Positions 4,947-7,901 of a stretch of 32,399 nt of DNA are shown piece by piece (positions within the stretch are counted from its first letter, which is position 1; each line of letters starts with the position of its first letter). A model generated the notes under the pieces. It did no database searches. It saw only the letters and a program-made list of their open reading frames with translations, and was not told where the DNA came from. Origin of the DNA: Campylobacterota bacterium (GTDB lineage Bacteria; Campylobacterota; Campylobacteria; Campylobacterales; Sulfurovaceae); assembly GCA_011048515.1 (NCBI GenBank), contig DSDW01000091.1, positions 1 through 32,399 of the forward strand, written 5' to 3'. Made by a program: the position numbers and the translations under genes.

Positions 4947-4954
4947 TCATTTTA

Positions 4955-5072
4955 GATAGTAAATAGTGGGGAGCAGGTAGTAGATAAGGCAGGGTTGCCA
5001 AAGGCAACCCTCTATCGGATAAAAGCATTTTTTAATGCTTACCAGATCTACTATCTACTATTTCCTACCCCT
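4955..5072. repeat. palindromic double-hairpin element, copy 1 (tig-clpP intergenic)
   Basis: gggttgcc-aaa-ggcaaccc (4992-5010) followed by aagcatt-tttt-aatgctt (5023-5040); flanked by imperfect inverted arms (agtggggagcaggtagtagat / atctactatctactatttcctacccc). Confidence 0.7.
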
Positions 5073-5162
5073 TATCTCTCTTTTTCTATTAATAAATTTA
5101 GTGTATATTTAACTAGTTTTTTAGTACTATATTTCACTATATACTTACACAAAGGTGACCAA

Positions 5163-5750
5163 ATGAGTTATATTCCATATGTTGTAGAACAGACCGGCAG
5201 AGGTGAAAGATCATATGATATCTATTCGCGCCTGCTTAAGGACCGTATCATTATGCTCAGCGGGGAGGTAAACGATGCCGTAGCCTCTACGATCGTTGCA
5301 CAGATGCTTTTCCTGGAAGCGCAGGACCCTGACAAAGATATCTATTTTTATATCAATTCACCGGGTGGTGTGATCACAGCGGGGATGTCGATCTTTGATA
5401 CGATGAACTATATCAAGCCTGATGTAGTCACGATCTGTATGGGACAGGCCGCATCCATGGGTGCTTTTCTGCTCTCTTCAGGGACTCCGGGTAAACGCTA
5501 TGCATTGCCCCATGCACGTATTATGATCCACCAGCCTCTGGGCGGGGCGCAGGGACAGTCGACGGATATTCAGATCCAGGCAAAAGAGATCCAGAGATTG
5601 AAGGATACTCTCAATGAGATTCTGGCAAAACAGACAGGAAAAACACTCAAAAAGATCGAAAAAGATACAGACAGAGATTTCTTCATGTCTTCGGAAGAGG
5701 CGGTAGAGTATGGTCTTATCGACAAAGTCCTGGAAAAAAGTTTTTCATAA
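5163..5750 (+). CDS. clpP: ATP-dependent Clp protease proteolytic subunit
   Basis: '[38 protein letters not shown]...[18 protein letters not shown]...[14 protein letters not shown]...[10 protein letters not shown]'; ATG 5163 with aaaggtgacc upstream; the ORF-track extension from 4995 reads through the repeat and is rejected. Confidence 0.96.
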
Positions 5751-5759
5751 GAAGCGGAT

Positions 5760-6272
5760 ATGATAAGAGAGATAGTTGTATATCCGGATAAGAGGTTGAA
5801 ACTCGTCTCCAGAGAGGTGGAGGAGTTTAACGGTGCATTGCATGATCTGCTGGATGATATGTATGATACAATGGTTCAAAGCAACGGTGTAGGGCTTGCG
5901 GCGATACAGGTCGGTGTTGATCAGAGGGTACTGATCATCAATGAACCGGACGAGAATGATGCGCAGCGTAAAGAGAATACCCTGGAGATGATCAACCCGG
6001 TGATCATCGAAAGAAACGGTGCTACAAAATACCAGGAGGGGTGTCTCTCTGTTCCCGGATACTATGATGAAGTAGAGCGCTATAAATATGTCAAAGTGGA
6101 ATACTTTGACAGACACGGACAATCGCAAACGATAGAGGATGACGGTTTTCTGGCTATCGCGATGCAGCATGAGATGGATCACCTTGACGGAAAGGTGTTT
6201 GTCGAAAAGCTCTCCTTTACAAAACGCAAACGTTTTGAGAAAGACTGGAAAAAACGCCAGAAAACCTCCTGA
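5760..6272 (+). CDS. def: peptide deformylase
   Basis: Motifs GVGLAAIQVG, EGCLSVPG and QHEMDHLDG; 9 nt after clpP. Confidence 0.95.
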   Translation: MIREIVVYPDKRLKLVSREVEEFNGALHDLLDDMYDTMVQSNGVGLAAIQVGVDQRVLIINEPDENDAQRKENTLEMINPVIIERNGATKYQEGCLSVPGYYDEVERYKYVKVEYFDRHGQSQTIEDDGFLAIAMQHEMDHLDGKVFVEKLSFTKRKRFEKDWKKRQKTS

Positions 6273-6284
6273 TAGGCAGAAGAG

Positions 6285-6372
6285 AGTAGGGGGTAAGTAG
6301 CAGGTAAAGCAGGGTTGCCAAAAGCAACCTTCTATCAGATAAAAGCATTTTCTAAATGCTTACCAAACCTTT
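6285..6372. repeat. palindromic double-hairpin element, copy 2 (def-gdhA intergenic)
   Basis: 'gcagggttgccaaaagcaaccttctatcagataaaagcattttctaaatgcttacca' is nearly identical to copy 1 (gcagggttgccaaaggcaaccctctatcggataaaagcattttttaatgcttacca); hairpins 6313-6329 and 6343-6361. Confidence 0.75.
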
Positions 6373-6392
6373 TGCCCCCACGGCTACACTTC

Positions 6393-6546
6393 GTTCCGAC
6401 TTGCCTTCAAAGGTGCATTTTGCACAACTTTTTCGGTTCCGAGCTTACAAAAGAAAAGCAGTTTGCTTTTGCTTAACAGCTCTCATAGTTCCGAAGCTAC
6501 AAACGACAAACTGTTGTCGTTTGCTTCACGCTTCTCATCTACTACT
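6393..6546. repeat. tandem array of three diverged hairpin units starting with gttccga
   Basis: gttccga at 6393, 6436 and 6488; hairpins gtgca-ttt-tgcac (6413-6425), aaaagca-gtt-tgctttt (6454-6470) and caaacgacaa-actg-ttgtcgtttg (6500-6523). Confidence 0.65.
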
Positions 6547-6551
6547 TGAAT

Positions 6552-7901
6552 TTATACCCCCTGAGCGACCATGGCTTTTGCGACACGTTTAAACCCGAGG
6601 ATATTGGCTCCGGCAGCCAGGTCCATATCGAGGTTATACTCATCACAGATTTTTTTGATATCTTTGTAGATCTTTGACATGATCTCTTGAAGTTTCTGGT
6701 CGATCTCTTCGGGACTCCAGTAGTTGAATGCACTGTTTTGGCTCATCTCAAGTACGGAGACCGCGACGCCTCCCGCATTGGCAGCTTTTGCCGGGGCAAA
6801 GAGAATCTGATGCTTCATAAATAGTTCGATGCCCTGCGTAGTGGTAGGCATATTGGCTCCCTCGGCGATGATCTTAACATCATTGTCTATGAGCTTCTTA
6901 GCACTCTCCTCCCCGAGTTCGTTTTGCGTTGCGCAAGGGAAAGCGGCAAAACAGGGGATATCCCATACATAGCTCCCCCCTTGATAATCTTCTCTTTTGA
7001 CATAGGCGGCTGTTTTTTTCTCTTCTGCATAGAGTTCCAGAGAAGCACGCTGTTCCAGCTTGATCTGCTTGAGCAGAGCGAGGTCGATACCGTTGGGGTC
7101 ATGGATCGTTCCTTTCGAGTCAGAACAGGTCACGGGGATCGCGCCGATATCATATAGCTTTTCGATCGCATGGATCGCCACATTGCCGCTGCCGCTGATG
7201 GTACAGATCTTTCCTTTGAGTGTTTCGCCCATATCCTCAAGAAGCGTCTGTGTAAAGTAGACCAGGCCATACCCCGTAGCGGAGATCCTTCCCTCGCTGC
7301 CGCCCAGTGCTATAGGCTTTGAGGTGATAATGCTGTCATAGCTGTTGGTAAGCATTTTATACTGGCCGAAGAGGTAGCCAACTTCACGCTCCCCTACGCC
7401 GATATCTCCCCCCAGGATATCGATATCCTCCCCGATACTGTTGTAGAAGGCTGTCATAAAGGCTTGGCAGAACTTCATGATCTCCTGGTCGCTTTTCCCT
7501 TTGGGATCAAAGTCGGCACCGCCTTTTGCTCCGCCGATGTGCAGCCCGGTAATCGCATTTTTGAAGATCTGCTCAAAGGCAAGAAATTTCAGGATATCAG
7601 GATTGACCGATGGATGGAACCGTACGCCGCCTTTGTAGGGGCCAAGTGCGTTGTTGAACTGGATACGGTAGCCATTGTTGACATGGATACGGTTTTTGTC
7701 ATCCAACCATTCGATCTTGAAGCGGATCTCTCTGTTGGGAGAGATGATCCTTTCGATGATATTGTGCTCGATATATTCCGGGTTTTTTTTGATGAACGGC
7801 TTGATGGAGGTAAGTACCTCTTCGATCGCCTGAAAAAACGTTGTATCCCCCACGCAGTTGGTTCCCCTTGCGATTTCCATAGCCTGCTGAATATAGTTCA
7901 A
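6552..7901 (-). CDS. gdhA: NADP-specific glutamate dehydrogenase
   Basis: 449 aa; 'RIQFNNALGPYKGGVRFHPSVN', 'GGAKGGADFDPKGKSD', 'NAGGVAVSVLEMSQNS' signatures. Confidence 0.96.
   Translation of the reverse strand: MNYIQQAMEIARGTNCVGDTTFFQAIEEVLTSIKPFIKKNPEYIEHNIIERIISPNREIRFKIEWLDDKNRIHVNNGYRIQFNNALGPYKGGVRFHPSVNPDILKFLAFEQIFKNAITGLHIGGAKGGADFDPKGKSDQEIMKFCQAFMTAFYNSIGEDIDILGGDIGVGEREVGYLFGQYKMLTNSYDSIITSKPIALGGSEGRISATGYGLVYFTQTLLEDMGETLKGKICTISGSGNVAIHAIEKLYDIGAIPVTCSDSKGTIHDPNGIDLALLKQIKLEQRASLELYAEEKKTAAYVKREDYQGGSYVWDIPCFAAFPCATQNELGEESAKKLIDNDVKIIAEGANMPTTTQGIELFMKHQILFAPAKAANAGGVAVSVLEMSQNSAFNYWSPEEIDQKLQEIMSKIYKDIKKICDEYNLDMDLAAGANILGFKRVAKAMVAQGV

Follow-up and report, generated by a model that had tools for sequence, protein, structure and literature searches.

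A tagged two-hairpin repeat with its own stop codon at gene ends in Campylobacterota

The hairpin array between two convergent genes

We analyzed a stretch of 32,399 nucleotides (the window) from a member of the Sulfurovaceae within the Campylobacterota, in which an array of hairpins occupies the interval between a def-like and a gdhA-like gene. The two gene names are provisional and come from a preliminary description of the sequence; proteins related to GdhA are found in 65 genomes of the genus. The features of the locus, in positions of the window, are the following.

5760..6272, plus strand: def-like gene, 170 aa, convergent with gdhA (open reading frame)
6285..6372, strand unassigned: type C element, a different and dispersed element neighbouring the array (second copy in the window)
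6373..6402, minus strand: partial B module, the second in the array, AAGTCGGAACGAAGTGTAGCCGTGGGGGCA (a similar array lies on contig C93)
6403..6434, minus strand: B hairpin, most of unit 1 of the preliminary description (sequence; covariation of the B outer stem across the phylum)
6435..6487, minus strand: A hairpin unit, formerly unit 2 (covariance-model match E=7.5e-18, the sequence itself being included in the model; alignment; pair counts)
6488..6539, minus strand: A hairpin unit, formerly unit 3 (covariance-model match E=2.7e-17, the sequence itself being included in the model; alignment; pair counts)
6535..6538, minus strand: RTGA tag (ATGA) of the first unit (sequence; tag columns of 123 units)
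6552..7901, minus strand: gdhA-like gene, 449 aa, with the array at its 3' end (open reading frame; related proteins in the genus)

The preliminary description had recognized three hairpin units, each opening with GTTCCGA. The motif stands at all three starts (6393, 6436, and 6488), but unit 1 is a different module: it (6393-6435) has only the 7-nt start in common with units 2 and 3, and it is made up of a B hairpin on the minus strand at 6432-6409 (AAAG-TT-GTGCA-AAA-TGCAC-CTTT) together with part of another B module. Units 2 and 3 (6436-6487 and 6488-6539) are identical at 37 of 52 positions, a figure that our recount returned unchanged; other adjacent 52-mer pairs in the window agree at no more than 25 of 52. 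Recounting also gave 10 of 10 stem pairs in unit 3 and 9 of 10 in unit 2, and reproduced the two-sided changes between them at pairs 17/32 and 20/29. The pairing of the reported 10-bp stem holds, but the structure is longer: an asymmetric internal loop divides it into an outer stem of 5 bp and an inner stem of 11 bp. None of the shuffled sequences folds as well as the 281-nt region (z -3.25). A chance palindrome is ruled out by the dispersed copies and the comparison of units 2 and 3.

The element reads on the minus strand, on which both covariance-model matches lie (C9:6488-6539:- and C9:6435-6487:-). In this orientation an A unit opens with the tag RTGA and closes with GGAACC; between them lies a hairpin whose outer stem (5 bp) and inner stem (11 bp, capped by a loop of 4 nt) are set apart by the asymmetric loop GTTAA/A. 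Sixteen paralogues of this genome align nearly without gaps over 53 columns. Unit 3 accordingly combines an ATGA tag with GAAGC/GCTTC as the outer stem, GTGAA/A as the loop, GCAAACGACAA/TTGTCGTTTGT as the inner stem, and GGAAC as the tail; unit 2 has an ATGA tag (6483-6486), outer stem GAGCT/AGCTC, an inner stem with one mismatch, and tail GGAACC. The B hairpin follows GGAACC and has a 4-bp outer stem, a bulge that is often AT or TT, and an inner stem that in its clearest form is closed by GAA or AAA. In the window copy these parts are outer AAAG/CTTT, bulge TT, inner GTGCA/TGCAC, and triloop AAA, with tail GAAGGC. A complete unit (RTGA, A hairpin, GGAACC, B hairpin) measures ~85 nt, and in A-B-A arrays the second A begins about 82-86 nt past the start of the first. 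The window array is ordered A-A-B-B', with the second B partial, and an array on contig C93 is 82% identical to it over 173 nt. The ATGA tag at 6535-6538 lies 17 nt past the gdhA stop and hence is not the stop codon of gdhA here.

Among 123 distinct 53-mers the tag positions hold R in 121, T in 115, G in 122, and A in 119; the internal loop is conserved as GTNAA/A with a G-T (G-U) pair at its edge. Three structural likenesses were considered. The loop GTNAA-R/TA with its G-U pair resembles a tetraloop receptor, yet position 13 varies; GCTTAAC is similar to the core site of an integron attC, yet there is no partner site pairing to GCTTAAC; and a 49-sequence alignment, on inspection, shows neither A nor B to be followed by the T run that a Rho-independent terminator would have.

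The neighbouring type C element has a GTAG-rich start and arms and two hairpins, GGGTTGCC..GGCAACC and AAGCATTT..AAATGCTT. Its second copy in the window (4953-5075) is 85% identical to 6285-6365 over the part 4965-5044. One copy lies upstream of a clpP-like reading frame (ORF 4995-5750), the other beside the A-A-B array.

Units are dispersed across the phylum and their stems covary

A DNA search with the array region returned many partial copies in the same genome. The preliminary description had proposed a covariance-model scan of this genome and its relatives, and such a scan, with a model built from the 16 paralogues, found homologues in both: 36 copies at E<1e-3 in this genome, and matches in 44 of 60 genomes in a set of relatives that includes it. 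Across the phylum Campylobacterota, 85 of 397 genomes in 36 of 68 genera gave matches. Since the model derives from a single genome, the scores of 60-79 bits reached in other genomes constitute independent support. Rfam yielded no match over the gathering threshold in the window and a single chance snoRNA match when nine unit loci were searched at E<=1, and we found no paper on these repeats. The family is real and widespread, and apparently undescribed. In a distant family (f20), units end the same two genes in different genomes, with one match each (L367, L370, L371 and L368, L369), which suggests long-term retention there.

In the 16 paralogues, 96.5% of pair cells are paired and 52 changes are two-sided, values that none of 500 shuffles reached and that were destroyed by sliding the partners. 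Comparable results were obtained for the A and B hairpins of 49 sequences drawn from across the phylum (232 two-sided changes, 96.8% of cells paired), where again 0 of 500 shuffles gave counts as high and sliding abolished the signal; this phylum-wide alignment also shows covariation in the B outer stem. The mutual-information list for the 123 units is headed by variable stem pairs. With homologues genome- and phylum-wide and compensatory changes in the stems, the earlier proposal that the units are related and maintained as folded structures is strongly supported. Neither a lack of homologues nor stem changes without compensation, the two outcomes that had been named as speaking against it, was seen when tested.

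When the pair that forms the inner-stem foot is left out, G-T pairs make up 1.6% of canonical stem cells, vs. 7.3% in 11 tRNAs from the same loci, which form a small control, and 419 cells with Watson-Crick double changes compare with 29 G-T cells. Because G-T pairs are rare and outnumbered by Watson-Crick double changes, selection or copying of a DNA hairpin appears to be favoured. Evidence against this DNA-level reading comes from position 16/41, the inner-stem foot, where G-T occurs in 76% of units and hints at an RNA or a protein-recognized loop.

Units are coupled to stop codons and differ in presence between sister species

Considering non-identical array starts and open reading frames from 95 codons up, we found the stop of the upstream frame exactly on the RTGA position at 52 of 144 starts, including a few with a decayed tag and TAA as the stop; a further 21 genes terminate inside the unit. 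In the background, which is largely coding DNA, the 400 nt upstream contain 604 other RTGA, of which 19 serve as such stops. Genes with their stop on the tag include fabG, sucD, radA, rimP, groEL, and genes for a GspF/PilC-like, a small heat-shock, and an L,D-transpeptidase-like protein. In counts that overstate independence because the genomes are related, 14 of 14 fabG orthologues with a unit and 0 of 56 without one end in TGA (70 orthologues of the genus; the others have TAA in 44 cases, including L155 with a degraded unit, and TAG in 12), and in another family, from which 30 groEL orthologues were compared, a unit accompanies each of the four TGA ends and the 26 others are TAA or TAG. In the groEL set, the unit of L415 is a variant recognized by eye and L409 has a unit-like hairpin after TAA. 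Element-free sites at fabG, groEL, sucD, gdhA, and L063 have no RTGA; RTGA therefore looks like part of the insert rather than a pre-existing target, and these comparisons lead us to infer that the unit brings the TGA along.

Many unit-free fabG genes (L122-L191) have at their end a small hairpin of an unrelated kind that takes in the last codons and the stop within its 5' arm, e.g., ATGTAATACCGCAAGGTATTACATA, which gives the impression of a gene end copied onto itself.

The presence of units differs between sister species. The array is missing between gdhA and def in the three closest relatives (GdhA 95-97% identical); for twenty further sites of this genome, the upstream flanks were located in the same three relatives and the downstream sequence was then compared. 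At one site, comparison of L063 with L244 and L245 shows an A+B unit inserted almost cleanly. The first hairpins at the radA stop codon differ among four sister species, and a fabG protein tree has ~10 unit gains or losses, of which at least six are forced by well-supported branches. Internal deletions and tandem duplications are part of the turnover (L230, L231). No target-site duplication was established at the compared sites, where the neighbouring intergenic DNA is mostly too rearranged for clean empty sites. For one unit, comparison of L230 and L231 with L054 revealed an internal deletion in G036 and tandem multiplication in G093, showing that the array is unstable.

Known repeat systems and a model of spread

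Among described repeats, GTAG REPs have a tag that often provides the upstream gene with its stop codon, TAG, and CGTC REPs are widely distributed tagged palindromes without a dedicated transposase (PMC3733652). Like GTAG REPs, the units are short palindromes, dispersed and located at the 3' ends of genes, that have an unpaired, stop-donating tetranucleotide at one foot, but their tag is RTGA rather than GTAG (123 units), they have two hairpins and ~85 nt, and no RAYT/Y1 gene flanked by units occurs among 32 Y1_Tnp loci from the genus. With CGTC REPs they have in common tagged palindromes, wide distribution, and no dedicated transposase, whereas a CGTC repeat is a single hairpin with a CGTC tag, an 8-9 bp stem, and a 4-5 nt loop, compared with RTGA, a 5+11 bp stem, and two hairpins here. 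Membership in both groups fails on the tag, and for GTAG REPs also on the linked enzyme. The non-autonomous derivatives of IS200/IS605 (PATEs) and HEARO offer another likeness, their left and right hairpins being recognized as single-stranded DNA, but for the units we found neither a related protein nor an Rfam match, and no RTGA target predating insertion. In Escherichia coli, BIMEs and REP in 3' UTRs are mosaic intergenic hairpin arrays and plausible stabilizers of mRNA 3' ends; the units differ in their head-to-tail arrangement, conserved internal loop, and built-in TGA.

Other repeats occur in the vicinity of units and of Y1 genes. Sequences resembling CGTC-tagged repeats (CGTCATTCC...GGGAATGACG) adjoin units and are separate from them (L023/L025, L051, L014), and microsatellites (GTAGTAG, AAAGTAAAAAGTA, ATTCACT) border many arrays. 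The two short Y1 (RAYT-like) genes of this genome (L032 = G000:C1 and L033 = G000:C33) are flanked by other palindromes, at one of the genes by GTAG REPs of the GTAGGGGTGGACCGTCGTGTCCACCC type, distinct from the units. An IS605-like locus, L031 (G000:C99), contains tnpA and two further ORFs, one Fic-like and one tnpB-like.

The array is probably a REP-like, non-autonomous mobile palindromic element that has its own stop codon and is mobilized in trans. The closest working model appears to be one of the REP/IS200-605 kind, with a folded single strand recognized in trans. By analogy with Y1/HUH enzymes acting on REP and IS200/605 ends, a trans-acting enzyme would recognize the element folded as single-stranded DNA and join it to a new site. 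Mobilization would be limited to foldable copies, and for this reason stems would remain paired while their letters drift. Intragenic insertions would be lost, and those at a last codon would survive because the unit brings its own in-frame TGA. Hairpins at the gene end would become the mRNA 3' end and may stabilize the mRNA as a by-product. The covariation, the dispersal across the phylum, and the link to stop codons are observations, whereas we infer the mobilizing enzyme, the strand, and any host benefit. A REP-like element was one of three roles previously suggested and fits best; a 3'-end structure agrees with the position of the units, which abut gene ends, but explains them incompletely, and a processed RNA array gained no positive support.

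No unit lies within ~1.5 kb of the 32 Y1_Tnp loci, which are part of the Y1 genes of the genus, and two genomes that are 99-100% complete have seven units each and no Y1_Tnp match. A link to the Y1 transposases of this genome was rejected, as none of its three Y1 genes is flanked by units, and so was an autonomous element between two identical units 1.4 kb apart in G032, where only an ordinary gene lies between. We tentatively suggest that the units may represent a third super-family of tagged palindromes beside GTAG and CGTC REPs, with two hairpins, a tag that equals a stop, and phylum-wide spread by an enzyme acting on the folded single strand; as the tag itself is a stop codon, the element could harmlessly replace the native stops of essential genes.

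A cis-acting structured RNA at mRNA 3' ends is the less likely reading. The TGA and two hairpins would then be selected as RNA, for instance to block 3' exonucleases or for protein binding, and would spread because copies are useful at gene ends. Precise abutment to the stops of housekeeping genes (fabG, groEL, sucD, radA, rimP, small heat-shock protein), the occurrence of units at groEL ends in different families, and the conserved GTNAA/A loop are consistent with this, and the G-U pair at the loop edge in 76% of units would be better explained by an RNA motif. The rest of the stems, however, contains few wobble pairs, the distribution is patchy and changes fast even between sister species, many copies lie away from stop codons or in head-to-tail arrays, and no Rfam family matches.

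It is improbable that the units are relics of HEARO/IscB-type IS200/605 elements, with the two hairpins being the ends left once the protein gene was lost. HEARO inserts beside ATGA or GTGA, the same RTGA motif, and two end hairpins are typical of such elements. However, no HEARO RNA (RF02033) exceeded the cut-off in 298 Campylobacterota genomes, which gave one sub-threshold match, and none matched at E<=1 in nine unit-bearing loci; RRXRR (IscB, PF14239) was found in 0 of 298 genomes, although control genomes likewise gave no match. The element-free orthologues without RTGA also argue against a pre-existing target. Formation of the hairpins in place by template switching, with arm copied from arm and compensation without transposition, seems very improbable: it predicts Watson-Crick-only changes and accords with element-free fabG genes that end in hairpins with the stop codon in the 5' arm, e.g., ATGTAATACC GCAA GGTATTACATA, but leaves unexplained the common tag, internal loop, GGAACC, B module, and copies in unrelated loci, and sister genomes differ by whole units with common sequence outside the stems.

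The REP-like units add a phylum-wide structured repeat family without any matching Rfam model, and the coupling of this small repeat to stop codons in housekeeping genes is unusually clean: wherever a compared fabG or groEL gene ends in TGA, the element is present. Whole hairpins are replaced in place from one sister species to the next, and this turnover provides a natural test of whether covariation arises from RNA function or from DNA-level copying, a distinction that bears on every covariation-based search for RNAs. The family likewise raises a question open to testing, namely by which enzyme palindromes lacking a dedicated transposase are moved.
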